This document shows, one piece after another, positions 25,663 to 37,076 of a stretch of DNA of 64,000 nt. The DNA lies in NCBI RefSeq assembly GCF_004364975.1, contig NZ_SOBW01000007.1:186001-250000 (forward strand), in the 5' to 3' direction. The position numbers were made by a program, and so were the translations under genes. Under the pieces are notes generated by a model. That model ran no database searches and had not been told where the DNA came from. It saw only the letters and a program-made list of their open reading frames with translations. The stretch comes from Gelidibacter sediminis. Lineage in GTDB: Bacteria; Bacteroidota; Bacteroidia; Flavobacteriales; Flavobacteriaceae. The first letter of the stretch is position 1; every line of letters starts with the position of its first letter.

Positions 25663-26328
25663 ATGAAAAAATCATTGATTATAATTCTATTAGTCACTTT
25701 CTCACTATCCTGTAAACAAAAGGAAAAAGCTAAAGTCATAGAAAAAGAATGGTCAACCGCAGAGAAAATTGCCAATGCTCATGGTTTAGAAAATTGGAAA
25801 AAGGTCTCTGAAGTACAGTTCACATTTAATGTTGATAGAGATACGACGCATTTTGAACGTTCGTGGATTTGGAAACCAAAGTCAGAAGATGTAGTGATGA
25901 TTTCTGGGAAGGACACCGTTGCTTACAACAGAAAATCTATCGACAGCATCTCATTAAATGCAGATAAAAGCTTTATTAACGACAAATACTGGCTATTAGC
26001 ACCTTTTCAATTGGTCTGGGACACCTCAGCAAGCATTTCTGAAGCTACTATTACCGAGGCGCCCATAAGCAAAACACAACTCAATAAGATAACAATAACC
26101 TATACTAGTGAAGGCGGCTATACGCCAGGCGATGCATATGATTTTTACTATGGTGATGATTTTATGTTGAAAGAATGGGTCTATCGCAAAGGAAATTCCA
26201 AAGAACCTTCTATGATGACAACCTGGGAGGATTTTGAAGACTTCAATGGCATTAAAATTAGTAAAACACATAAACGTCCAGAGGTTGATTGGACACTACA
26301 TTTTACAAACATCAAGGTCATCCAATAA
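25663..26328 (+). CDS. Lipoprotein of unknown function
   Basis: A 221-residue lipoprotein: signal peptide with lipobox LSC (Cys17), then a soluble beta-rich domain with many aromatic residues (SWIWKPKSEDVVMISG, YTPGDAYDFYYGDDFML, WEDFEDFNGIKISKTH). The pattern of alternating strands resembles LolA/outer-membrane-lipoprotein-carrier folds, but that is only an impression; I do not recognise a named family with certainty. A near-consensus -7 box (TATCTTTA, 25640-25647) precedes it. A terminator hairpin lies about 110 bp downstream. Confidence 0.75.
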   Translation: MKKSLIIILLVTFSLSCKQKEKAKVIEKEWSTAEKIANAHGLENWKKVSEVQFTFNVDRDTTHFERSWIWKPKSEDVVMISGKDTVAYNRKSIDSISLNADKSFINDKYWLLAPFQLVWDTSASISEATITEAPISKTQLNKITITYTSEGGYTPGDAYDFYYGDDFMLKEWVYRKGNSKEPSMMTTWEDFEDFNGIKISKTHKRPEVDWTLHFTNIKVIQ

Positions 26329-26440
26329 GATTTGTTAAACTATTGCTAAAACCGCCTTTCTGAACATCCAAAACATGTAGAGACCACGTATATATAGTGT
26401 ATCAGATGAATATTCCGCAGCAATGCGTCTCTATATATTC

Positions 26441-26479
26441 AAAGAGCTTCCACTTAAAAAGTTGAAGCTCTTTTTTTTT
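26441..26479 (+). terminator. Terminator upstream of the kynurenine island
   Basis: A 10-bp inverted repeat (26441-26450 with 26464-26473, core AGAGCTTC; two further pairs beyond one mismatch) ends in nine T. It separates the lipoprotein gene from kynU. The 112 bp between the lipoprotein stop and this hairpin hold nothing recognisable. Confidence 0.8.
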
Positions 26480-26579
26480 CTAACAGACTTCCGTTTTCTT
26501 TACTACAAAATGTCAAGGAAATCCACTCTGGCATCTTATAAACTCTCTTTTTAGAACTTCTTTCTAAGCTTATAATTCT

Positions 26580-26587
26580 TATTTTTG
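26580..26587 (+). promoter_or_regulatory. Predicted -7 box at the kynU 5' end
   Basis: TATTTTTG matches TAnnTTTG. It overlaps the first in-frame start candidate of kynU (TTG at 26585), so if used, translation must begin farther downstream. Confidence 0.4.
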
Positions 26588-27880
26588 TGTACAACCGAAA
26601 ATAAATACACCTTGTCACATCATAAATTAGGCTTAGCATACGCGCTACAACAAGATCAATCTGATGCATTGGCATCTTATAGAAATCACTTCCATATTCC
26701 AAAAGACACAAATGGAAACGAATTGATTTATATGACTGGGAATTCTCTCGGACTTCAGCCAAAATCTACTAAAGACTATATCAATCAAGAATTGGAAGAT
26801 TGGGCAAATTTAGGTGTTGAAGGACATACTGAAGCAAAAAACCCATGGTTGCACTATCATGAATTGCTAACAGAAAACATGGCAAAAGTGGTCGGTGCAA
26901 AACCGATTGAAGTGATTGTCATGAATACCTTGACGGTCAATCTGCATTTGATGATGGTTTCTTTTTATAAGCCGACACCAAAACGTTATAAAATACTTAT
27001 TGAAGCTGATGCATTTCCTTCAGATAAATATGCCGTTGAATCCCAATTGAAACACCACGGTTTTGATCCGAAAGATGGTGTTGTTCTGTGGAAAGCCAGA
27101 AAAGGCGAAGAATTGGCAAATTATGAAGATTTAGAAGCCATCATGGAAACGCAAGGCGATGACATTGCCTTGATTATGATTGGTGGCGTTAATTATTACA
27201 CAGGACAGTTTTTCAATTTTAAACGCATCACCCAACTCGGTCATAAACATGGCTGTTTGGTTGGTTTTGATTGTGCACATGGCGCAGGAAATGTAGCATT
27301 AAATCTTCACGATTCAGGTGCGGATTTTGCCGTTTGGTGTACTTATAAATATTTAAATTCGGGTCCGGGAAGTTTAGGTGGCGCTTTTGTTCATGAACGT
27401 CACGCACATAACAAAGACCTCAACCGTTTTGCAGGTTGGTGGAGCCATAATAAAGCAACCCGTTTTAAAATGCGCGACGAATTTGATCAACTCGCTGGCG
27501 CAGAAGGTTGGCAATTAAGCAACCCTCCTATCTTATCAATGGCAGCCATTAGAGCTTCATTAGATATTTTTGCAGAAGTCGGCATGGAAAAACTAACTGC
27601 AAAATCGAAGGAACTCACGGGTTATTTTGAATTTCTATTGAATCAATTAGGGAACGACAGCATTAAAATCATCACGCCATCAAATCCTGACGAACGTGGA
27701 TGTCAACTCTCTATTCAAGTTAAAAATGCAGACAAGGCCTTGCACAACAAATTAACGGAAGCAGGTGTCATTTCAGACTGGCGTGAACCTGACGTGATTC
27801 GCTGTGCGCCAACACCATTATACAATTCGTTTGAGGATGTATATTATTTGGTAGAAAAATTAAAGGAGATTTTAAATTAA
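26585..27880 (+). CDS. kynU: Kynureninase
   Basis: A PLP enzyme of up to 431 residues that cleaves kynurenine to anthranilate or 3-hydroxykynurenine to 3-hydroxyanthranilate, plus alanine. Typical segments are YMTGNSLGLQPKS, NTLTVNLHLMMVSFYKPT, GFDCAHGAGNVALNLHD, WCTYKYLNSGPG with Schiff-base Lys255, and the C-terminal SDWREPDVIRCAPTPLYN. The start is uncertain: no ATG precedes the catalytic fold, TTG at 26585 overlaps a -7 box, and TTG at 26612 is an alternative giving an N-terminus closer to relatives. With the 3-hydroxyanthranilate genes downstream its likely substrate is 3-hydroxykynurenine. First gene of the kynurenine island. Confidence 0.93.
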   Translation: MCTTENKYTLSHHKLGLAYALQQDQSDALASYRNHFHIPKDTNGNELIYMTGNSLGLQPKSTKDYINQELEDWANLGVEGHTEAKNPWLHYHELLTENMAKVVGAKPIEVIVMNTLTVNLHLMMVSFYKPTPKRYKILIEADAFPSDKYAVESQLKHHGFDPKDGVVLWKARKGEELANYEDLEAIMETQGDDIALIMIGGVNYYTGQFFNFKRITQLGHKHGCLVGFDCAHGAGNVALNLHDSGADFAVWCTYKYLNSGPGSLGGAFVHERHAHNKDLNRFAGWWSHNKATRFKMRDEFDQLAGAEGWQLSNPPILSMAAIRASLDIFAEVGMEKLTAKSKELTGYFEFLLNQLGNDSIKIITPSNPDERGCQLSIQVKNADKALHNKLTEAGVISDWREPDVIRCAPTPLYNSFEDVYYLVEKLKEILN

Positions 27881-27988
27881 AAATGCTCAAAAATCCCTTC
27901 CCTTTTTAGGAAAGTTGGACTAAAGTTCGAATCAGAGCTTTAAATTGGAAGAGTTTTCAATCTTAGATTAAAACCAAAAATAAAAGGT

Positions 27989-28004
27989 TCCTGCCTTCGC
28001 AGGA
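27989..28004 (+). repeat. Start-proximal hairpin before kmo
   Basis: A 6-bp stem TCCTGC/GCAGGA with a CTTC tetraloop lies 6 bases before the ATG of kmo. The same type of element occurs at 31588 and 33381 directly before two other genes of this island, so it is listed as a repeat. Confidence 0.7.
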
Positions 28005-28010
28005 CATATT

Positions 28011-29426
28011 ATGAAAAAACAACAAAACATACTCATCATCGGCGCTGGTCTTTGTGGCAGCTTACTTGCTTTACGATTAGGCCAACGCGGCTTTAACGTG
28101 AATCTTTATGAAATGCGTCCTGATTTACGGAAGGTTGAAATTAGTGCAGGGCGCTCCATCAACTTGGCACTTTCTGATAGAGGCTTAAAAGCGATGCGCC
28201 TTGCAGGTGTAGAGGATAAGGTAAAGGAACTCTGTATCCCAATGAATGGACGACTTTTGCACGACATGGAAGGGAATACGGTACTAGCACCTTATAGCGG
28301 ACGCGAACATGAATTTATAAATTCCATTTCTCGTGGCGATTTGAATGCTTTACTTTTGGATGAAGCGGAAAAACATCAAAATGTAAATATTTATTTCAAC
28401 AAAAAATGCAAATCAGTCGATTTCGAAAATACGACAGCCCTTTTTGAAGATTATGAAACAAAAGAAAATTTTGTAGAAGACGCTGATATTATTATAGCTA
28501 CAGACGGTGCCGGTTCAGCATTGCGGAAAAGTTACTTTTTAGGAAAGAAAATTTTATTCAGTTTTTCACAGGATTGGTTAACCCATGGCTACAAAGAGTT
28601 AAGCATCCTTCCTGCTAAAAATGGAGGCTACCAGACCTACAAAAATGCGCTTCATATTTGGGGACGCGATAGTTTTATGCTCATTGCCCTGCCCAATTTA
28701 GATGGCAGTTTTACCGTTACCTTATTTTTAAGTTTTGATGAGGGCGAATACAATTTTGGAAATTTAACAACCCCAGAAAAGGTGCTTGAGTTTTTCGAAA
28801 AATATTTCAAAGACGCCTTAGAACTGATGCCAAATTTGGTAGATGATTTTTTCACCAATCCAACCTCACCTTTGGGGACCGTAAAATGTTCGCCATGGCA
28901 TTATAAAGGAAACACCTTATTGATGGGCGATGCAGCACATGCCATTGTGCCTTTCTACGGACAAGGGATGAATGCGTCTTTTGAGGATGTTGTTGTATTT
29001 GACAAGGCGTTAGATGAAGGAGAACCAAATAGCGAAGCAGGTTGGGAAGCCATTTTTAAGGCCTATGAAAATAGTCGCAAAATGGACACTGACGCTATTG
29101 CTGATTTGGCTATTGATAATTTCCATGAGATGAAAGGTCACGTCAATAATGCGATTTTTAGAGAAAAACGCAATTTGGAGATGGCCTTCGAAAAAAACTT
29201 CCCTGATGACTATTCGTCAAAATATTCATTGGTTACCTTTAATGAGGATATTGGCTATAGAGAGGCCATGTTAAGAGGTCGTGCACAAGATAAAGCCATC
29301 TTGAATATGCTTGCCGACAAGGAACTCGACAGCAATGCTGATTTAAAAACTAATTTAGAAAAAGTAAATCGTGCTACTGAGGAGATTTTGGAAGATGATC
29401 GGGTAGCAAAGAATTTTAAACACTAA
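28011..29426 (+). CDS. kmo: Kynurenine 3-monooxygenase
   Basis: A 471-residue FAD monooxygenase that hydroxylates kynurenine to 3-hydroxykynurenine with NADPH and O2. It has the dinucleotide motif GAGLCGSLLALRLG (Gly11-Gly16), the KMO-typical GRSINLALSDRGLKAM, the DG motif IIATDGAGSALRKSY, and the second FAD motif LLMGDAAHAIVPFYGQGMNASFED. The C-terminus is polar rather than a mitochondrial membrane anchor, as in bacterial KMOs. It lies 130 bp after kynU and starts 6 bases after a small hairpin. Confidence 0.95.
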   Translation: MKKQQNILIIGAGLCGSLLALRLGQRGFNVNLYEMRPDLRKVEISAGRSINLALSDRGLKAMRLAGVEDKVKELCIPMNGRLLHDMEGNTVLAPYSGREHEFINSISRGDLNALLLDEAEKHQNVNIYFNKKCKSVDFENTTALFEDYETKENFVEDADIIIATDGAGSALRKSYFLGKKILFSFSQDWLTHGYKELSILPAKNGGYQTYKNALHIWGRDSFMLIALPNLDGSFTVTLFLSFDEGEYNFGNLTTPEKVLEFFEKYFKDALELMPNLVDDFFTNPTSPLGTVKCSPWHYKGNTLLMGDAAHAIVPFYGQGMNASFEDVVVFDKALDEGEPNSEAGWEAIFKAYENSRKMDTDAIADLAIDNFHEMKGHVNNAIFREKRNLEMAFEKNFPDDYSSKYSLVTFNEDIGYREAMLRGRAQDKAILNMLADKELDSNADLKTNLEKVNRATEEILEDDRVAKNFKH

Positions 29427-29481
29427 GAACAATAAAAGTTAATTTAAACATCGATAAGATTTAAATTATAAAATAGACGTT

Positions 29482-29922
29482 ATGGCAGAAAAAACAAATG
29501 AGACTTCTACCGCCACAGGAACTAAGGTTACACCAAGAGGCGCTTACCCACATACCAAACGCGTAGGCGATTTTATTTTTGTATCGGGCACAAGTTCCCG
29601 TCGTGCAGACAATAGCATTGCAGGTGTAGATATTATTGACACCATGGGTACCAAACACTTAAATGCTGAAGTGCAAACGCGTGAGGTCATCAAGAATATT
29701 GAGAAAAATCTAGCCAAAGAAGGTGCAACCCTAAAAGACGTCGTCGATGTTACTACATTTTTGGTCAACATGAACGATTTTGCTGGGTACAATAAAGCTT
29801 ATGCCGAGTTTTTTGATAAAGAAACAGGACCAACCAGAACTACTGTAGCGGTACATCAATTGCCACATCCTGATTTGGTGGTGGAAATTAAGGTGATGGC
29901 TTATAAAAAGATTAAAGAATAG
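29482..29922 (+). CDS. RidA-family protein, probable 2-aminomuconate deaminase
   Basis: A 146-residue RidA/YjgF/UK114 enamine deaminase. The core reads [52 protein letters not shown] and the ligand-binding [12 protein letters not shown] with its conserved arginine. About 15 extra N-terminal residues set it apart from plain RidA. In tryptophan catabolic clusters of this kind, RidA-type proteins act as 2-aminomuconate deaminase, giving 4-oxalocrotonate; the setting between kmo and the semialdehyde dehydrogenase supports that here. Function as a general RidA remains possible. Confidence 0.85.
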
Positions 29923-29959
29923 AGAGAAGAGAAAAGAGATTTATTTGAGATTAGGCATT
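29922..29959 (+). repeat. Purine-rich spacer between deaminase and dehydrogenase genes
   Basis: The 37 bases after the deaminase stop begin with an AG-rich tract (GAGAGAAGAGAAAAGAGAT). Similar AG-rich tracts occur at 31400-31440 and near 43000, suggesting fragments of dispersed filler repeats. Confidence 0.35.
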
Positions 29960-31399
29960 ATGAAGATACAGAACTACATCAACGGTCAATATTTACCTCC
30001 AGTCGCTGACGAATGGATAGATAATTATTGCCCTGCCAATGGCGAAGTTTACGGACACATCCCAAACTCGTCAACTGAGGATGTAGAGAATGCCTATATT
30101 GCTGCAAAATCGGCGTTTCCGAGTTGGTCACAAACAACTTTGGAAGAACGCAGCAGAATCCTCATTAAAATCTCAGAACTCCTTGAAGCGAACTTAGAAC
30201 GCTTTGCCGAAGCTGAAAGCAAAGACAACGGGAAACCAATTTCGTTAGCAAAAGCTGTTGATATTCCGAGAGCGGCCAGTAATTTTCGATTTTTTGGGAA
30301 TGCGATTACCCAATTCGGTAGTGAAAGTCACGAGACTGTGGGTTTGGATGCTATTAATTATACCTTACGTCAACCCATTGGAGTTGTGGGCTGTATTTCG
30401 CCATGGAACCTCCCACTCTATCTTTTTACCTGGAAAATCGCTCCAGCCATAGCCGCTGGAAATTGCGTCGTTGCCAAACCCAGTGAAGTCACTCCTATGA
30501 CTGCGTATTTATTGGGAGAAATCTGTACTGAAGCTGAATTGCCAAATGGTGTATTGAACATTGTTCACGGTTTAGGAACTACCGCAGGACAAGCCATCAT
30601 TGAGCATCCAGACATTAAAGCGATCAGTTTTACAGGCGGGACTGCAACTGGTGCGCATATCGCGAAAGTAGCGGCGCCAATGTTTAAGAAATTATCATTG
30701 GAATTGGGCGGCAAAAATCCGAACATCATTTTTGCTGACTGCGATTATAAAGACATGCTAGAAACTACAGTGCGCTCTTCATTTGCCAATCAAGGGCAGA
30801 TTTGTTTGTGTGGCAGCAGGATTTTTGTGGAAGCCTCTATTTATGAAAAATTCAAGGACGATTTTGTCGCCAGGGTAAAAGCGCTTAAAGTAGGTCATCC
30901 TTCAGAAGCAGAAACAAATATTGGCGCCTTGGTATCCAAAGCACACTTAGAAAAGGTTCAGAATTATATCGAAATTGCTAAATCAGAACAAGGAAACATC
31001 CTTTGTGGCGGCAATAAAGTGACTATAAAAGATTACGAAAACGGCTATTATTTAGAGCCTACAGTTATTGAAGTGACATCAAACGAATGTCGCGTTAATC
31101 AAGAAGAAATATTCGGCCCAGTAGTAACTATTATGCCATTTGAAACTGAAGATGATGTTTTAAGAATGGCCAATGCAGTGAAATACGGCTTATCCGCAAC
31201 ACTCTGGACCAATGATTTAAAACGCACTATGCGAATGAGCAATCAATTGCAAGCCGGAATTATTTGGGTAAACACTTGGATGATGCGCGATTTACGCACC
31301 CCTTTTGGAGGGATAAAAGCATCTGGTGTTGGCCGAGAAGGCGGATTTGAAGCTTTACGCTTTTTTACGGAAGCGAAGAATGTTTGTATAAAATACTAG
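29960..31399 (+). CDS. 2-Aminomuconate-6-semialdehyde dehydrogenase
   Basis: A 479-residue aldehyde dehydrogenase. Catalytic features: PWNLPLYLFTWKIAPA with the oxyanion Asn, KPSEVTPMTAYLLGE for NAD, SLELGGKNPNIIF with the general-base Glu, and GQICLCGSRIFVE with nucleophile Cys282. The GQICLCxSR stretch is characteristic of the ALDH8A1/AMSDH branch that oxidises 2-aminomuconic semialdehyde to 2-aminomuconate. That semialdehyde is the product of ACMSD, encoded 3.4 kb downstream, so gene context agrees. The ATG at 29960 is preferred to the in-frame TTG at 29945. Confidence 0.92.
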   Translation: MKIQNYINGQYLPPVADEWIDNYCPANGEVYGHIPNSSTEDVENAYIAAKSAFPSWSQTTLEERSRILIKISELLEANLERFAEAESKDNGKPISLAKAVDIPRAASNFRFFGNAITQFGSESHETVGLDAINYTLRQPIGVVGCISPWNLPLYLFTWKIAPAIAAGNCVVAKPSEVTPMTAYLLGEICTEAELPNGVLNIVHGLGTTAGQAIIEHPDIKAISFTGGTATGAHIAKVAAPMFKKLSLELGGKNPNIIFADCDYKDMLETTVRSSFANQGQICLCGSRIFVEASIYEKFKDDFVARVKALKVGHPSEAETNIGALVSKAHLEKVQNYIEIAKSEQGNILCGGNKVTIKDYENGYYLEPTVIEVTSNECRVNQEEIFGPVVTIMPFETEDDVLRMANAVKYGLSATLWTNDLKRTMRMSNQLQAGIIWVNTWMMRDLRTPFGGIKASGVGREGGFEALRFFTEAKNVCIKY

Positions 31400-31587
31400 A
31401 AAAGGAGCCAAGAATAATAGAGTCAAGAGCCAAGACGGATAATGTTTGCTACTTGAACATGAATAATTGATAGAACATAGAAAAAAGAGAATTACTTTTA
31501 TTATGGTTTAAATAAACTCTCTGTTCTTTTTTCTTTGTTCTCTATTCTCTATTCGCACATTTAATAAATAGATTAACCTTAAAAAAG
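31400..31587. repeat. Non-coding spacer with repeats and an imperfect inverted repeat
   Basis: The spacer between the dehydrogenase and SDR genes has no plausible gene. At 31404-31437 there are near-identical 9-mers (GAGCCAAGA, GAGTCAAGA, GAGCCAAGA). An A-rich segment at 31471-31494 is roughly the reverse complement of a T-rich segment at 31517-31543 (about 20 bp, imperfect), which could fold into an mRNA hairpin. All look like remnants of dispersed repeats. Confidence 0.45.
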
Positions 31588-31608
31588 ATTCCTGCCTCTG
31601 CAGGGAAT
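31588..31608 (+). repeat. Start-proximal hairpin before the SDR gene
   Basis: ATTCCTGC and GCAGGGAAT pair around a CTCT tetraloop with one bulged G; only three bases separate it from the ATG at 31612. Second copy of the element seen before kmo. Confidence 0.7.
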
Positions 31609-31611
31609 ACT

Positions 31612-32394
31612 ATGGATTTAAAACTAAACAATAAATACGCATTAGTCTGCGGGAGCACCGCAGGAATAGGAAAAGCAACAGCAATTTCATTGGCAGCTGA
31701 AGGCGCGAAGGTGACCTTGGTGGCGCGAAATGAGGAGAAACTGAAGCACACTATTTTAAAGCTTAGCAATCCTGAAAACCACAGTTATATTGTGGCCGAC
31801 TTCTCTAAGCCTGAGGAGTTGGAGAGCAAAATATCTGAGTTCATTTCCAAAAATCATGGGTTCCACATCTTATTAAATAATACTGGTGGCCCTGCAGGAG
31901 GACCTATTTTTTCGGCAAAATTGGAAGAGTTTGGAAATGCCTTTACCCAACATTTAAAATGTAACCACATTTTGGCACAAGCTGTTGTTCCTTTTATGAA
32001 AGAACAAAATTACGGGCGCATTATCAATATTATTTCTACTTCAGTGAAGCAGCCTTTAGACGGACTTGGAGTTAGCAACACCATTCGTGGAGCCGTTGCC
32101 AATTGGAGTAAAACTTTGGCCAATGAACTTGGTCAATTTGGAATTACCGTAAATAACGTCCTTCCTGGTGCTACCGAAACAGAGCGTTTAACGGATATTA
32201 TCAAAAATAAATCGGAAAAATCTGGTCAGACGGAAGAGGAAGCTGCCAATGCCATGAAAAATACAGTCCCTGCCAAACGTTTTGCGCAACCAGAAGAGTT
32301 GGCGTATGCGGTGACGTTTTTGGCAAGTGAAAAAGCGGGATATATCAACGGCATTAATCTGCCTGTTGATGGTGGCCGCACCAAATCGTTATAA
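31612..32394 (+). CDS. SDR-family oxidoreductase with atypical catalytic residues
   Basis: A 260-residue short-chain dehydrogenase/reductase. The Rossmann start GSTAGIGKATAI, the NNTGGPAGGP motif, the active-site serine Ser142 in INIISTSV, and the C-terminal YINGINLPVDGG are all present. At the position of the catalytic YxxxK the sequence reads SNTIR (155-159), so Tyr is Ser and Lys is Arg; this is a recognisable SDR subgroup, not random decay, since the rest of the fold is intact. Located in the island between the semialdehyde dehydrogenase and the dioxygenase, it may act on a pathway intermediate such as 2-aminomuconate; that is inference only. Confidence 0.85.
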   Translation: MDLKLNNKYALVCGSTAGIGKATAISLAAEGAKVTLVARNEEKLKHTILKLSNPENHSYIVADFSKPEELESKISEFISKNHGFHILLNNTGGPAGGPIFSAKLEEFGNAFTQHLKCNHILAQAVVPFMKEQNYGRIINIISTSVKQPLDGLGVSNTIRGAVANWSKTLANELGQFGITVNNVLPGATETERLTDIIKNKSEKSGQTEEEAANAMKNTVPAKRFAQPEELAYAVTFLASEKAGYINGINLPVDGGRTKSL

Positions 32395-32756
32395 AATGAT
32401 CATAAATCCCTTTTTCGTCATACGCGTAAAAATCTGCGAATAGCTGTGAAATCAGCGGGATACAAAACTATGACCAAATGAAAGGTTATCCTGGAGATCA
32501 CGAGGATCATCGCAAAATAAATGCTAAGGTTTGTGATTAGTGCCTAAATAAATAAGTAACCATAATGCCACAACTAAGAGCTTTATGATATGTTGCAAAC
32601 AATCACTAAAATCAGGACAAAATAAGCATCAACAAAGTCTTTTTGTTCTGCAGTTTTATACTTAATTTTAAGATCGAAATCTGCGTTAAGGATGGAGGTC
32701 AAGATTGCTTTCTCCAAAAAATTTAAAGTTCATTAACGCCAACAAAAACTAAAACC
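32395..32756. other. 362-bp non-coding spacer
   Basis: No open frame with coding character was found between the SDR and dioxygenase genes. The stretch near 32430-32465 (AATCTGCGAATAGC, AATCAGCGGG) looks like decayed fragments of the 'aatctgcg' type repeats common between genes in flavobacteria. No terminator or -7 box was convincing. Confidence 0.5.
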
Positions 32757-33290
32757 ATGAGCAAATTAGTTTCTCCTATAAATTTCAAGAAATGGATTGA
32801 AGAAAACAGACATCTTCTAAAACCACCAGTTGGTAATAAAGTGGTCTGGAAGGAAGGCGATTTTATTGTGATGGTCGTTGGTGGGCCGAACAATCGAAAG
32901 GATTATCATTACAACGAAACCCCGGAATTCTTCTATCAAGTGGAAGGTGACATGGTTTTAAAAATTATTGATAACGGCACACCTAAAGATGTTCATATTA
33001 GAGAAGGTGATATTTATTTACTGCCACCTAAAGTGCCACATTCCCCACAACGCGAAGCTAATACTGTTGGATTGGTTATCGAATACAAACGTCCGGAAGG
33101 TATGCGAGACGCCTTGCTATGGTTTTGTGAAAATTGCACAACAAAACTCTATGAAGAAGACTTTACGGTTGAAAATATTGAAACTGATATGCCTAAAATT
33201 TTCGACAAATATTACAATGATAAGGACAAACGCAAATGTCCGAATTGTGGCGAATTGATGGAACCGCCTACTAAAGTCAAAATTGAATAA
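32757..33290 (+). CDS. nbaC: 3-Hydroxyanthranilate 3,4-dioxygenase
   Basis: A 177-residue cupin dioxygenase that opens 3-hydroxyanthranilate to 2-amino-3-carboxymuconate semialdehyde (ACMS). The Fe(II) ligands His51, Glu57 and His95 and the substrate arginines Arg47 and Arg99 occupy exactly the positions known for the Cupriavidus enzyme. The C-terminus carries a second, rubredoxin-like metal site with CxxC pairs Cys124/Cys127 and Cys161/Cys164, as in bacterial HAO. The pathway successor ACMSD is encoded next. Confidence 0.96.
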   Translation: MSKLVSPINFKKWIEENRHLLKPPVGNKVVWKEGDFIVMVVGGPNNRKDYHYNETPEFFYQVEGDMVLKIIDNGTPKDVHIREGDIYLLPPKVPHSPQREANTVGLVIEYKRPEGMRDALLWFCENCTTKLYEEDFTVENIETDMPKIFDKYYNDKDKRKCPNCGELMEPPTKVKIE

Positions 33291-33380
33291 TGACATTATT
33301 GTAATGGTATCGAAGGCTAAATCAGATTTGAAGGACCTCATCCCAAAGTTCTTTTTAACAATTGATAATAAAAAATAAGA

Positions 33381-33398
33381 TTCCCGCTGTCGTGGGAA
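33381..33398 (+). repeat. Start-proximal hairpin before the ACMSD gene
   Basis: TTCCCGC pairs with GTGGGAA around a TGTC tetraloop, 6 bases before the ATG at 33405. Relative to the copy at 31588, one T-A pair has become C-G and one G-C has become G-U, so the sequence differs but the pairing is kept. Confidence 0.7.
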
Positions 33399-33404
33399 AT
33401 ACAT

Positions 33405-34493
33405 ATGGAAAAACGTAAACTACGCATCAACGGACACTCACATTTATTGCCTTACCCTGAGGAAATCCCTCAATTTATGAAGGATAAAGGTATTTTTTGG
33501 GTTGATAAAGACCGAAAATTCATGCTTCAAAAAGATTGGAGCCGTCCAGTAACGGATTCAAGTTTCTTTTTAGATGAAAAATTGGCGTGGATGGAACGTT
33601 TCAAAATCGACCATGCGGTGGTATTAAATCTGTCGCAACTGTACGGGAATGGGTTGCGAGTGGAAGAAATGAAGCAAGCCTTACGTTTTCAGAATGATTT
33701 TAATGCGAAAATCCAACGTGAAAATCCGAGTAAATTTACGTCAGGTTTTGTAGTGCACCCAGGTTTCGTTCGGGGCGCCATGTGGGAAATGGAACGCTGT
33801 GTAGAAGAATTGGGCATGCAACTCCTGTGTTTGCCTACGCATTACATGGACACAATTGGGACTTGGCGTTGTATTTTTGATGAAGAAAATGAGCCGCTTT
33901 TTGAACTGGCTAGTAAGTATAATTTAGCTGTTGAAATTCATCCGTATGATGGTGAAAAATTCATCAAATTAGAAAATACGTCATGGCGATTCCACTTGAT
34001 TTGGATGTTGGCGCAATGTGCTGACGCTTATCATTTTTTGACGTTAAATGGCTATCAAGACAAATTCCCAAATATGCGCACCTGTTTTGCTCATGGTGGG
34101 CAATTGGCACAAATCAATTTAGGCCGTCGTATTCAAGGTTTTGACGGTAGGCCCGATTTATTTGAAGGCAAGAGTCACCCGAGAAAAGCTGTAGGCCATA
34201 AAAATATATTCTTTGACACTTTGGTACATGATACCGGAGGACTGCAATTACTGATTAAAAACCAAGGGTCAAAACAAGTACTAATGGGCTTGGATGATCC
34301 GTATCCGTTGGGTGAAATGGAAAGTGCACAACAATCGTCCTACCCAGGCAAAATTTTAGATTTGGCTATGGAAAGAGAAATTATTACTGCTGATGAACAC
34401 GATGCCATTTGGGAAGATAACGTAGTCCGATGGTTGTGCGGTGATGATGAGGTCGCTAAACAAAAGTTGATCAATAGAATTTTAGGGAATTAA
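33405..34493 (+). CDS. nbaD: 2-Amino-3-carboxymuconate-6-semialdehyde decarboxylase (ACMSD)
   Basis: A 362-residue amidohydrolase-2 family zinc decarboxylase that converts ACMS to 2-aminomuconate semialdehyde and so diverts flux away from quinolinate and NAD. Metal and catalytic residues are visible: HxH as His11/His13 (INGHSHLLPYP), His179 in VEIHPYDG, catalytic His230 in CFAHGGQ, and Asp297 in MGLDDPYPLGE. The family tail DAIWEDNVVRWL is intact. Presence of this gene, with the dehydrogenase and deaminase, argues for a degradative rather than NAD-biosynthetic pathway. Confidence 0.95.
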   Translation: MEKRKLRINGHSHLLPYPEEIPQFMKDKGIFWVDKDRKFMLQKDWSRPVTDSSFFLDEKLAWMERFKIDHAVVLNLSQLYGNGLRVEEMKQALRFQNDFNAKIQRENPSKFTSGFVVHPGFVRGAMWEMERCVEELGMQLLCLPTHYMDTIGTWRCIFDEENEPLFELASKYNLAVEIHPYDGEKFIKLENTSWRFHLIWMLAQCADAYHFLTLNGYQDKFPNMRTCFAHGGQLAQINLGRRIQGFDGRPDLFEGKSHPRKAVGHKNIFFDTLVHDTGGLQLLIKNQGSKQVLMGLDDPYPLGEMESAQQSSYPGKILDLAMEREIITADEHDAIWEDNVVRWLCGDDEVAKQKLINRILGN

Positions 34494-34638
34494 AAAGAAC
34501 TAAAATTCCTCTTATAAAAACCTAAGCACCAGATCGAGTTCTTCTATTTAGTAAGACATCTTTAATTGGTGCTTTTCAATTCAAAAACACTGAAAAATCA
34601 ATCTATTCAATTGGGATTGCATATCTAAAACCTATAAC
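34494..34638. other. Spacer with weak hairpin between ACMSD and O-methyltransferase
   Basis: An 8-bp inverted repeat (34524-34531 AAGCACCA with 34567-34574) followed by a T-run could be a weak terminator with a long 35-base loop. If real, the O-methyltransferase would be separately transcribed. Confidence 0.35.
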
Positions 34639-35280
34639 ATGAATTTTTTACCTGAACCCATAAACAAATACGTTACCGAGCATTCTGGAGACGAACCAGA
34701 ATTGTTACAACAACTGACTCGAGAAACATATCAAAAAATTCTGCAACCACGGATGCTCAGCGGACATTATCAAGGTCGGGTTTTGAGTATGATTTCTAAA
34801 TTGGTGAATCCTACAACGATTTTAGAAATTGGAACTTACACCGGCTATTCGGCATTGTGTTTAGCTGAAGGTCTTAATAAAGATGGTGTTTTGCACACCA
34901 TTGATATCAATGAAGAACTTGTCGATTTTCAGCGTAAATATTTTGACAAATCGGAATATGGAGCTCTTATCCATCAGCATTTAGGTGATGCCTCAGAAAT
35001 TATTCCGAAGTTAGATACCACCTTTGATCTGGTGTTTATTGATGCTGACAAGGAAAACTATGCCAACTACTTTCATATGGTGATTGACAAGTTAAATCCT
35101 GGAGGGATTATCTTGTCGGACAACGTCCTATGGAGCGGAAAGGTTATAGAGCCCCTAAAAAAGGATGATGTGTCTACAGAAGCTTTAATTAAGTACAATA
35201 AATTACTTAAAGATGATGCTCGGGTTGAAACGCTCGTGTTGCCTATTCGTGACGGATTGACGGTCTCTCGAAAGAAATAG
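34639..35280 (+). CDS. O-methyltransferase (COMT/CCoAOMT-like)
   Basis: A 213-residue class I SAM-dependent O-methyltransferase of the methyltransferase-3 family. SAM motif I is ILEIGTYTGYSALCLAEGL near residues 58-76; the metal and substrate motif FDLVFIDADKENYANYF with catalytic Asp, and GGIILSDNVLWSGKV follow. These enzymes methylate catechol-type or related hydroxyls. Its location at the end of the kynurenine island may mean it acts on a hydroxylated aromatic intermediate, but such genes also occur alone in flavobacteria. Confidence 0.88.
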   Translation: MNFLPEPINKYVTEHSGDEPELLQQLTRETYQKILQPRMLSGHYQGRVLSMISKLVNPTTILEIGTYTGYSALCLAEGLNKDGVLHTIDINEELVDFQRKYFDKSEYGALIHQHLGDASEIIPKLDTTFDLVFIDADKENYANYFHMVIDKLNPGGIILSDNVLWSGKVIEPLKKDDVSTEALIKYNKLLKDDARVETLVLPIRDGLTVSRKK

Positions 35281-35300
35281 AATTTTTATCCTTGAAATAT

Positions 35301-35342
35301 CTATCGAAGGATTGTCATTTTTTTTAAAGACAACTTCGATAG
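35301..35342. terminator. Hairpin between convergent O-methyltransferase and subtilase genes
   Basis: CTATCGAAG (35301-35309) and TTGTC (35312-35316) pair with GACAA (35329-35333) and CTTCGATAG (35334-35342), leaving a two-base bulge and a T/A-rich loop. It lies 21 bp after the stop of the O-methyltransferase gene. Confidence 0.6.
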
Positions 35343-35360
35343 AATATCATATCAAATAAA

Positions 35361-35563
35361 ATGTCAGTTTGAGAACGTTTTCGACTGCGCTCCAACTGAC
35401 ATTTGTTTTTTAATATTATAATGCCCACGTTCAACCGCCTTTGATCCCCTTTAAAATCTTCCACAAAGATTAATTAAAGTTCAATTATTAAGGTTTTCGA
35501 CTGCGCTCAAACTGACATTTATTTTTATAGTCATATAATGCCTTCACTCAAACTGACAATGTC
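35361..35563. repeat. Cluster of dispersed 'actgaca' repeats
   Basis: Three related copies occur in 200 bp. 35377-35425 and 35493-35542 are direct repeats sharing GTTTTCGACTGCGCTC-AACTGACATTT and then AATGCC; a shorter third copy (CTCAAACTGACA) is at 35546-35558. The first copy also pairs with ATGTCAGTTTGAG at 35361-35373, forming a 13-bp hairpin with one mismatch. The sequence type is common between flavobacterial genes. Confidence 0.7.
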
Positions 35564-35570
35564 TTAAATC

Positions 35571-37076
35571 TTATTGTACAGCTTGCAAGGCATCAATATT
35601 ACCATATCCAAAATTGCTATTCTTACTAGGATAAAAATCAGAAGCTTGCTTCAACCTACTTAACACTTGTTCTCGAGACCAATTTGGATATTTTGACCAC
35701 ACCAAGGCAGCAATGCCTGCAGTAGTCGCAGTAGCAACTGAAGATCCACCGGTATAATTACGGGTCCCATTATAGAATCCTAAAACGGGTGGCGATTTAG
35801 AAGTGTCATTATCTCCTTCCATGACGATGGTGAAATCAATTTTACTACCACTGTGGCAAGTTTCACAACGCTCATAATTAACCCCATCATCTACACCCGT
35901 TACGGCAACCGTTTCATCCATTGTGGCTGGGAAAATCACCCCAAAACCATTTGTAAAACTCGTGGAAGTTCCTCCAGCAGCAAAAATAAGTTTGTTTTTA
36001 CTGTAGGCATACTTTACAGCATCTTTAATATTTCCTATAGACCAAACGTAACCTATAGACATTGAAATAATATGTACATCGCTTCTACGTCCTAATTGAA
36101 CCAATGCATCAGAAACCCCTTTACGCTCATGATAATCATTTAATAACACATCTTCAGTAGCTCTATATGCCACTAAATTTGAATTATAAGCGACACCAAC
36201 CGGCATTCCATTATCATTACGAGGCGAGGCCATTGCAGAGGCCATGGCTGTACCATGACCACATTTATCGTGTGGACCGTCATAGTTGCTGGACCACCAC
36301 CAGCCTGAGTCGATAAACGTTCCATATTTTTGGACCGTACGTCCCGAAGAATAACCATCGTTAAACCCTGAAGAATTTAATAAAGATTGAGATTCCGAAA
36401 CACCCGTATCGATTAATCCTATTGTTACTCCTGCTCCGGTACTTACGTTCCAAGCTTGCGGGATGTTATGCTTACCAAAATTCCATGAAACTTGAGCATT
36501 ATTAGGCGCAATTGTAGTGTAATGTGCTGGATTTATCGTGGCTGAATTGTCATTACAACCTGAACTTGATCGGTTATATTCTTTCCCTTTATAATGACTG
36601 TATCCATTAGGTTCCAAATACCTTACATATTTATGTTTACGAAGTTCAATTATGGTGTTGATATTCTGTATACCTACATCAACAACGTTAATAATTACAT
36701 GGGAAACCGTTGTCAATTCAGACGCCTTTGATTTTTCATTTTGGGCTACGACAGCCAATACCTCATCCTTTTTCGAGATGATTTGTCTATTTTCGCCTTC
36801 CGAAAAGCTCTCTCCTTTTTCACCATAACCAATAGTTAGCACATTATTGCCATGAATAACGGCACTCCACAAAAAATATGCGTCAACCTGACTCCAGTCG
36901 AAATCGCCAGTTTTGTTTAAAGTTTCTGTGATTTTAGTGTTGATTTCATCAATGGTTAAGGGGTGTTCTGGATAGACCACCTGAGGTGCTGCCGCTTCAA
37001 AATTCGTTTCTTCTTTAGAACAAGAAACCAGAACGAGCGTAAAAAGAAATACTACCTTAAAGTGAAGTTTTTTCAT
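35571..37076 (-). CDS. Subtilisin-like serine protease (S8), lipoprotein
   Basis: A 501-residue lipoprotein (lipobox VSC near residue 19) with an S8 peptidase domain. The catalytic triad is visible: Asp223 in GLIDTGVSES, His274 in CGHGTAMASA and Ser446 in GGSSVATATTAG. About 180 residues before the Asp probably form an inhibitory or structural pro-region. The chain ends soon after the catalytic domain (NFGYGNIDALQAVQ) without a T9SS C-terminal sorting domain, consistent with lipid anchoring rather than type IX secretion. Likely exported and active at the cell envelope; substrates unknown. Confidence 0.92.
   Translation of the reverse strand: MKKLHFKVVFLFTLVLVSCSKEETNFEAAAPQVVYPEHPLTIDEINTKITETLNKTGDFDWSQVDAYFLWSAVIHGNNVLTIGYGEKGESFSEGENRQIISKKDEVLAVVAQNEKSKASELTTVSHVIINVVDVGIQNINTIIELRKHKYVRYLEPNGYSHYKGKEYNRSSSGCNDNSATINPAHYTTIAPNNAQVSWNFGKHNIPQAWNVSTGAGVTIGLIDTGVSESQSLLNSSGFNDGYSSGRTVQKYGTFIDSGWWWSSNYDGPHDKCGHGTAMASAMASPRNDNGMPVGVAYNSNLVAYRATEDVLLNDYHERKGVSDALVQLGRRSDVHIISMSIGYVWSIGNIKDAVKYAYSKNKLIFAAGGTSTSFTNGFGVIFPATMDETVAVTGVDDGVNYERCETCHSGSKIDFTIVMEGDNDTSKSPPVLGFYNGTRNYTGGSSVATATTAGIAALVWSKYPNWSREQVLSRLKQASDFYPSKNSNFGYGNIDALQAVQ

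Follow-up and report, generated by a model that had tools for sequence, protein, structure and literature searches.

Ribosomes of the Flavobacteriaceae, like those of other Bacteroidota, initiate translation without Shine-Dalgarno pairing, and how these bacteria choose their start codons is an open question. We examined three small hairpins in a 64,000-nucleotide (nt) stretch of Gelidibacter sediminis DNA (contig NZ_SOBW01000007.1, positions 186,001 to 250,000, within a genome of 3.56 Mb; hereafter the window), which stand directly before the start codons of kmo, a short-chain dehydrogenase/reductase (SDR) gene and ACMSD in an island of kynurenine-pathway genes. An earlier note on this DNA had described the hairpins as covarying, and had proposed that they were either copies of a dispersed palindromic element that landed at the ribosome-binding site or structures kept to tune translation of a subset of the pathway genes. 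We found that they belong to a set of start-codon hairpins, with a stem of 7 base pairs (bp) and a 4-nt loop, that end 4-8 nt (peak 5-6) before an ATG. The set is present in Gelidibacter and at some genes of other Flavobacteriaceae, and it is not specific to kynurenine metabolism. The published view is that structure near the start is avoided, and is strongly inhibitory, in this phylum; conserved, covarying hairpins 5-6 nt before starts contradict the simple form of that view. The genes that bear them are many, some of them essential-looking, and the hairpin is a compact, testable element of the initiation region, relevant also to the way in which dispersed palindromes come to be permanent components of leaders.

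The three window hairpins are real, with coordinates, stems, loops and spacing essentially as first described, and between the copies one T-A pair does become C-G and one G-C pair G-U. From the end of the paired stem to the ATG there are 6, 3-5 and 6 nt for kmo, SDR and ACMSD, the SDR gap varying with how its bulge is drawn. The bases that follow the hairpins are ATATT, ATACT and ATACAT, then ATG; no run of T follows any stem, which rules out an intrinsic terminator. Allowing up to three mismatches, the pattern TTCCYGC-N4-GYRGGAA matched the window 31 times against a shuffle mean of 15.4 (1 of 100 shuffles as high), and only the kmo, SDR and ACMSD sites matched with 0-1 mismatch. A structure-only scan (6 strict pairs, loop of 4, at least 4 G-C) returned two hairpin sites in the window, kmo's among them. 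Across Gelidibacter, with 10 leaders per gene, the minimum free energy (MFE) of positions -32 to -1 averaged -8.9 at SDR, -8.0 at ACMSD and -5.9 at kmo. The average was -1.5 for the deaminase gene RidA (n=10), -2.9 for the dioxygenase gene HAO (n=10) and -1.6 for the aldehyde dehydrogenase gene (n=5), weak predicted structure that agrees with the earlier statement that no hairpin precedes these three. The corresponding z-scores were -2.8 for ACMSD, -2.3 for SDR, -1.6 for kmo, 0.0 for RidA and -0.9 for HAO. Judged by z-score against the control gene OMT (mean MFE -2.8, z -1.75), SDR and ACMSD do better, and kmo does no better and would not stand out alone. We set aside the energy gap between hairpin and plain leaders as evidence because the leaders had been sorted by hairpin presence.

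To place such hairpins relative to genes we built a covariance model on 21 copies from the G. sediminis genome, with 18 nt of upstream flank and zero downstream bases. In that genome it gave at least 59 matches at E≤10 (the best 150 of 1818 candidates scored). Among the best 30, an ATG opening a frame of 60 or more codons lay at -1 to +12 nt in 20 (in two of these at -1) and at 13-35 nt in 4, and 6 had no ATG; two of the 30 represent a single terminator-like site, counted once per strand, and two more are a double hairpin before one gene. The site C1:146082 of this genome resembles a terminator. At E≤0.01 the nine Gelidibacter genomes, G. sediminis included, each gave from at least 28 to at least 128 matches (150 candidates scored per genome), counts that pool start-codon and dispersed copies; a genome of another genus, G014, gave at least 46, and other family members at least 0-3. 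In 396 kb from two Gelidibacter genomes (G007 and G008), in stretches picked at model matches, a start lay 0-15 nt downstream of 32 of 80 matches, against 1 of 80 in the reverse direction.

Because the A-rich flank of the model may favour start contexts and so builds in part of this orientation bias, we added structure-only scans. With 7 strict pairs, a loop of 4 and at least 4 G-C, the DNA of the same two genomes (331 genes) gave 174 hairpin readings, and starts fell at 5, 6, 7 and 8 nt in 8, 7, 2 and 2 cases, compared with 13 over all of 10-60 nt. With loops of 3-8, in counts that include some hairpins more than once, a start lay at 5-9 nt of 31 of 237 Gelidibacter hairpins, the other 5-nt bins holding at most 12; in other genera the 5-9 nt bin held 14 of 262, bin 55-59 held 8 and bin -5 to -1 held 7. 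A relaxed scan restricted to Gelidibacter hairpins unlike repetitive extragenic palindromic (REP) sequences found 20 at 4-7 nt, where more distant upstream positions gave 6.4 per four; some of this set, though, differ by a single base from the REP-like class, and such matches had guided the choice of stretches. The enrichment near start codons that the earlier note had thought worth looking for is therefore present in the genome itself (20 of the best 30 matches with an ATG within 12 nt) and in its relatives (the structure-only peak at 5-8 nt). Hairpins 3' of stop codons occur too.

The hairpin is retained at equivalent sites of orthologous genes. In Gelidibacter this holds for kmo, SDR, ACMSD, trpA, trpB, trpD, trpG, trpS, thyA, hisS, argH, atpH, two ABC transporter genes and others, with 3 to 10 leaders surveyed per gene and a hairpin in most of them (the trp, hisS, thyA, argH, atpH and ABC transporter names are putative, given from N-termini). 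With the same hairpins before unrelated genes we rejected a pathway-specific signal, and the idea of a subset of the pathway genes proved too narrow. The SDR hairpin has orthologous copies in other Gelidibacter and in part of the other genera, and the kmo site recurs in six Gelidibacter genomes (G001, G003, G005, G006, G007 and G008) with altered sequence, partly decayed in some. In 21 gene families with a perfect hairpin in at least one species, 106 hairpins were aligned with that reference using their sequence rather than their pairing; 5 leaders resisted alignment, and a 22nd family, a spurious reading frame, was dropped. All 7 pairs persist in 60 of the hairpins and 6 in a further 30, which makes 90 with 6 or more. 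Changes on both sides were seen in 50 cells against 14.5 expected under independent arms, a descriptive comparison, as the cells share ancestry. The distinct non-reference states were 17 double paired, 26 single paired, 49 single broken and 11 double broken, the two broken counts being inflated by a few badly aligned rows.

ACMSD illustrates how far the stems diverge, with TTCCCGC/GTGGGAA, TTCCCAC/GTGGGAA, CTCCCA/TGGGAG, TTCTCA/TGAGAA, TTCCAT/ATGGAA and CCCAA/TTGGG in different species. Its 10 Gelidibacter leaders are 85.7% paired, and 3 pairs have changed on both sides, a number reached by 2 of 500 shuffles; the count of further pair types was unremarkable (183 of 500). The diverged stems of G005, G007 and G008 are each matched exactly only once in their genome; the closest other matches are 2-3 bases off, some of them hairpins themselves, and a search with the G003 stem matched its own site at 3 mismatches. 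As these stems lack a second exact genomic copy, we infer that they changed in place and were not copied in.

Beyond the genus we collected leaders of trpS in 70 of 149 genomes (30 best-ranked and 40 from lower ranks) and of thyA in 50 of 144 (30 best-ranked and 20 from lower ranks). For trpS, 22 of the 70 were excluded for a promoter-like TTTG motif near the ATG and 14 more could not be aligned, leaving 34; 23 of the 50 thyA leaders were aligned. Both sets hold nearly one leader per genus, and their pairing percentages refer to hairpin-bearing leaders only. The trpS hairpins are 87.8% paired (slid controls 43-57%) and those of thyA 88.6% (slid controls 40-54%). Double changes that keep pairing occur in 7 of 7 pairs in each, which 8 of 500 shuffles reached for trpS and 4 of 500 for thyA. 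Double-change cells numbered 29 against 10.8 shuffled for trpS and 29 against 10.0 for thyA, and no shuffle of 500 reached these values or either covariation score; further pair types in thyA were unremarkable (208 of 500). Shuffles ignore relatedness; slid controls keep it, though a structure derived from a consensus tends to beat them.

Compensatory change at orthologous sites thus exceeds shuffled and slid controls for ACMSD, trpS and thyA. We did not use covariation among paralogous copies as proof, since those copies had been selected by a palindromic search pattern. The covariation first claimed from the three window copies, which alone prove little, accordingly rests on pairing retained at orthologous sites, and it is there, in the Gelidibacter families and in ACMSD, trpS and thyA, that the suggestion of hairpins kept for their structure is borne out. 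Across the family, the palindrome alone occurs at 588 exact sites in 79 genomes, and with an ATG at 4-7 nt at 70 sites in 28 of 149 genomes. Start enrichment is uneven by genus, and strong in some (11 of 44, 8 of 34, 6 of 18 and 5 of 15). In 31 palindrome-ATG sites from 30 loci the ATG opens a frame of at least 100 codons in 23, two of these in Gelidibacter; the genes that recur in other genera are trpS (three), a regulator-like gene (three) and thyA (two), with hisS, kmo, SDR, trpB and an ABC gene once each.

The composition of the leaders indicates where the hairpin sits. Taken over 437 plain leaders, from the window and the Gelidibacter stretches, the fraction of A is highest at -14 to -10 (0.46-0.55). 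In 52 hairpin leaders the hairpin occupies these positions and A there is 0.04-0.29; when 18 nt are excised, A reaches 0.56-0.71 at -14 to -10, 0.56-0.77 at -14 to -9 and 0.62 at -6 and -3. The fraction of A just upstream is 0.66 for 40 start-codon copies against 0.44 for the other copies that could be oriented (57 of 68; Mann-Whitney p 5e-9). The A-rich run therefore belongs to the start context, and the hairpin lies between this A-rich box and the last bases before the AUG. We also considered an outer helix between a TTTAA region and the last bases before the ATG and rejected it, as 5-bp pairing occurred in 10.9% of 230 leaders against 8.8% (maximum 12.6%) when the partners were shuffled.

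The trpS leaders also place the hairpin relative to transcription. We searched 30 trpS loci with long flanks for TAnnTTTG, which we take to be the Bacteroidetes -7 box, scoring box positions from the sequence. Leaders lacking the hairpin have this box at -25 to -29 in 7 of 11; in leaders with the hairpin the nearest box lies at -56 to -90, 5' of the hairpin, in 16 of 19, and of the other three, two show no box and one shows boxes at -64 and -47. With the hairpin downstream of the promoter box, it appears to lie inside the transcribed leader of a first gene. Translational coupling within operons is accordingly not a general explanation, given that 17 of 19 hairpin leaders of trpS have the box 5' of the hairpin and that the genes upstream of the kmo, SDR and ACMSD hairpins end 108, 190 and 91 nt before them.

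We consider it very probable that these hairpins are mRNA structures under selection for pairing and position, and we infer that by their shape and spacing they influence how translation starts. Our favoured reading, to which we assign a probability of roughly one half, is that the hairpin serves as a folded spacer in Shine-Dalgarno-less initiation, as a leader structure of the initiation region. Ordinary Flavobacteriaceae leaders have A at -3 as well as an A-rich box at about -10 to -14. In the hairpin leaders 18 nt of hairpin stand between the A-rich run and the last 5-6 nt before the AUG, and once folded they would form a compact spacer that keeps the AUG aligned on the 30S subunit with the A-rich run, possibly a bS1 site. 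Selection would then bear on pairing and spacing and leave the sequence free. Such hairpins may be seeded, and replaced, by a dispersed palindrome family, and would later be inherited and undergo compensatory change. Because the hairpin precedes genes that look essential (trpS, hisS, thyA), it is probably compatible with initiation or helps it. The signals around it, which after excision are an A-rich run from -9 to -14 and A at -6 and -3, resemble the A-rich, Kozak-like ones described for Flavobacterium johnsoniae, where A-3, A-6 and A-12/A-13 are stimulatory (PMC6847099). A bolder variant, which we regard as doubtful, makes the hairpin an intramolecular stand-in for the Shine-Dalgarno/anti-Shine-Dalgarno helix. 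Where ribosomes hide the anti-Shine-Dalgarno tail, an A-form hairpin whose 3' strand ends 5-6 nt before the AUG might take the place of that duplex on the 30S platform and position the start codon by shape alone, so that any pairing sequence at that spacing would suffice.

Several observations weigh against the folded spacer. The hairpin of kmo is short of one or two pairs in several species, and no alignable hairpin was found in 36 of the 70 trpS or 27 of the 50 thyA leaders. The A profile of excised leaders correlates weakly with that of plain ones (0.34, and 0.12 with the hairpin kept), mostly through a shortage of A at -1 and -5 in the hairpin leaders. The fixed orientation described below is not predicted by a purely structural spacer. 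Across the family, the palindromes with an ATG 4-7 nt downstream (12%) exceed the roughly 7% estimated from base composition only modestly, some palindrome-rich genera have no start sites at all (0 of 45, 0 of 22 and 0 of 17), and 8 of the 31 palindrome-ATG sites open frames of at most 25 codons. In ACMSD-centred loci of other genera (908 genes), non-REP-like hairpins numbered 7 at 4-7 nt against 10.2 per four positions upstream, and in trpS/thyA-centred loci all 8 non-REP-like start hairpins are those of trpS and thyA themselves; with no peak of non-REP-like hairpins, the start peak in other genera is carried by REP-like ones, trpS and thyA apart. Structure in F. johnsoniae is described as generally low from -20 to +20 (PMC6847099), the very region in which hairpin leaders hold a stable hairpin. 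For Prevotella bryantii, PMC3155529 reports that initiation-region structures of -11.1 and -5.2 kcal/mol reduced protein to 0.007 and 0.12, and that a hairpin at -21 did not inhibit; on these data the start-codon hairpins might simply repress.

Repression, which this last point brings forward, is the main rival: the stem would block initiation until a protein, helicase, temperature or small molecule opened it, and the genes would be translationally controlled. With predicted energies of about -4 to -12 kcal/mol and an end about 5 nt from the AUG, the stems would be inhibitory by the P. bryantii data, and several of the genes are related to tryptophan or other amino acids (trpS, trpA/B/D/G, the kynurenine genes, hisS and argH, by their putative names). 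We nevertheless think it unlikely, as trpS and thyA show no strictly conserved stem or loop sequence for a regulator to read, the gene set extends to atpH, thyA, ABC transporters and others, and stems this stable would presumably hardly melt at the low growth temperatures of the genus. Hairpins that sequester ribosome-binding sites and RNA thermometers share with this set a stable hairpin in the initiation region; here, by contrast, there is no Shine-Dalgarno sequence to hide, the stem ends 5-6 nt before the AUG, the AUG is free, and strict conservation is absent. An mRNA stability or processing element, in which the hairpin protects the 5' end or is a cleavage site and its proximity to the AUG is incidental, strikes us as improbable. 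It would fit the trpS hairpin lying downstream of the promoter box and the stabilisation of mRNA by REPs in E. coli (mentioned in PMC12306157), but a hairpin that guards a 5' end should keep a constant spacing to the transcription start, and the spacing of 5-6 nt seen here is to the AUG.

A rival of a different kind arises because the same genomes carry a dispersed, homogeneous palindrome, ATTCCTGC-N4-GCAGGAAT, that resembles CGTC-1 REPs. Such a palindrome might prefer to insert a few bases before ATGs and be passively kept there, what looks like covariation being replacement of one subfamily by another. The abundance of model matches in all nine Gelidibacter genomes would suit this account, as would the copy adjoining a tRNA-Arg 5' end in G. 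sediminis, the copies within RidA coding sequence and the REP-like start-codon peak of other genera, trpS and thyA apart. Orientation is fixed, with GA on the 5' side in 36 of 40 start-codon copies and reversed in 0 of 40. The sites before ACMSD and SDR are held by different palindrome families in other genera, and families swap within the genus in some leaders, so palindromes do get inserted there. The copies themselves differ, however. In a comparison where the search pattern fixed the loop at 4, dispersed Gelidibacter copies have CCTGC in 52 of 58 and the eighth pair in 52 of 58, whereas start-codon copies have CCTGC in 17 of 40, CCCGC in 16 of 40 and the eighth pair in 14 of 40. The stems of ACMSD, trpS and thyA lie far from the palindrome consensus with pairing retained, and the Y1 (RAYT) transposase domain PF01797 of the GTAG REP/RAYT system had no match in the G. 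sediminis genome (5 of 14 control genomes were positive), which rules out a RAYT-borne REP. We therefore rate an insertion hot spot as quite unlikely and, since dispersed copies are uniform and start-codon copies are not, distinguish a REP-like family that spread recently from leader hairpins that are older and inherited, some of which that family may have seeded. Of the proposal that a dispersed palindrome landed at the ribosome-binding site, the existence of such an element stands; the start-codon copies differ from it in stem sequence and eighth pair, and the trpS/thyA hairpin is common to many genera.

Among known systems, CGTC-1 REPs, which include Neisseria dRS3, are described by Di Nocera et al. 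(2013; PMC3733652) as having an 8-bp stem that starts with two A-T pairs, a 4-nt loop and many copies. In copy number the dispersed copies are alike, and in stem and loop they look similar. The same paper records CGTC repeats from Bacteroidetes among other phyla, and it suggests post-transcriptional control by REPs that lie at the 5' ends of some open reading frames (ORFs) in Pseudomonas, Citrobacter and Stenotrophomonas. It places REPs mostly near the 3' ends of ORFs, unlike the palindrome copies here, 40 of 108 of which stand 2-12 nt before a start. The CGTC-1 tag (TGTC; TGAC on the sense strand) is borne by one start-codon copy of 40 and by none of the 58 dispersed Gelidibacter copies, the CCTC variant being left uncounted; G014 has the sense-strand TGAC in 3 of 4 dispersed copies. 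We do not claim CGTC-1 membership for the start-codon hairpins. The motifs Bacteroid-trp, Flavo-1 and GUCCY-hairpin of Weinberg et al. (2010; PMC2864571) are likewise candidate structured RNAs of Bacteroidetes from comparative genomics, and Bacteroid-trp is listed there as probably cis-regulatory. No Rfam family reached the gathering threshold in window positions 26000-36000, where E≤1 gave two unrelated weak matches, nor in ten trpS/thyA loci, which rules out a known Rfam RNA; the GUCCY-hairpin has no Rfam number and stood outside this comparison. Among the open-access PMC matches listed, no title or abstract opening names start-codon hairpins in Flavobacteriaceae.

The features of the window are given in Table 1. 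The kynureninase and 3-hydroxyanthranilate dioxygenase of the island score over their NCBIfam cut-offs, and the remaining island names come from the earlier note and context; the kmo protein had only general FAD-hydroxylase matches in NCBIfam, all under cut-off.

Table 1. Start-codon hairpins, A-rich boxes and genes of the kynurenine island, in window coordinates.
Feature	Position	Strand	Remark or basis
Hairpin TTCCTGC-CTTC-GCAGGAC before kmo	27988..28005	+	G-C/A-T pairs = 6 (27989-28004)
A-rich box (aaaaccaaaaataaaa), 5' of kmo hairpin	27970..27985	+	sequence reading; hairpin-excised A profile
kmo, kynurenine 3-monooxygenase-like FAD monooxygenase	28011..29426	+	ATG at 28011; name from earlier note and context
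Hairpin TTCCTGC-CTCT-GCAGG(G)AA before SDR gene	31589..31607	+	one bulged G or U-G pair
A-rich box taaaaaaga, 5' of SDR hairpin	31580..31588	+	sequence reading; hairpin-excised A profile
SDR-family oxidoreductase gene	31612..32394	+	ATG at 31612; top NCBIfam match PRK08339, below cut-off
Hairpin TTCCCGC-TGTC-GTGGGAA before ACMSD	33381..33398	+	sequence reading
A-rich box, 5' of ACMSD hairpin	33366..33379	+	sequence reading; hairpin-excised A profile
ACMSD	33405..34493	+	ATG at 33405; name from earlier note; no NCBIfam match

At some genes a palindrome extends into the protein. Six genomes (G002-G005, G007 and G008) have a related palindrome within the first codons of RidA, in some of them as a variant or in longer form, and copies read VPAFAG or VPASAG after the ATG (loci L138, L130, L148 and others, from G. 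gilvus, G. japonicus, G. pelagius and related species). In the same species a palindrome stands immediately 5' of the conserved N-terminus of the aldehyde dehydrogenase and would read IPAFAG. Some of these RidA and aldehyde dehydrogenase copies seem now to be N-terminal extensions.

Other copies lie in other contexts. The tRNA-Arg copy of G. sediminis (L024, C1:329448-329465) stops 6 bases before the 5' end of the gene, and a tandem array in G. japonicus (L124, 8890-9789) holds seven copies at a spacing of 135-153 bases. ACMSD leaders of other genera (L171, L178, L182, L188 and L190) carry the REP-like palindromes GATTGCC...GGCTCGCAATGACA and GATGCTTCGACAGGCTCAGCATGACA, which end about 5-10 nt before the start with the tag side toward the ATG. 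A second hairpin class, CCTCCCC-TTT-GGGGAGG followed by ttaggaggggctt (ttaggagggg), stands mostly 14-19 nt before the ATG and presents a Shine-Dalgarno-like AGGAGGGG about 6-9 nt before the start, in bacteria that lack Shine-Dalgarno sequences. We found it at the SDR gene of G. pelagius, whose kmo has a related hairpin, and at SDR in HKST71, Bizionia and Subsaximicrobium.

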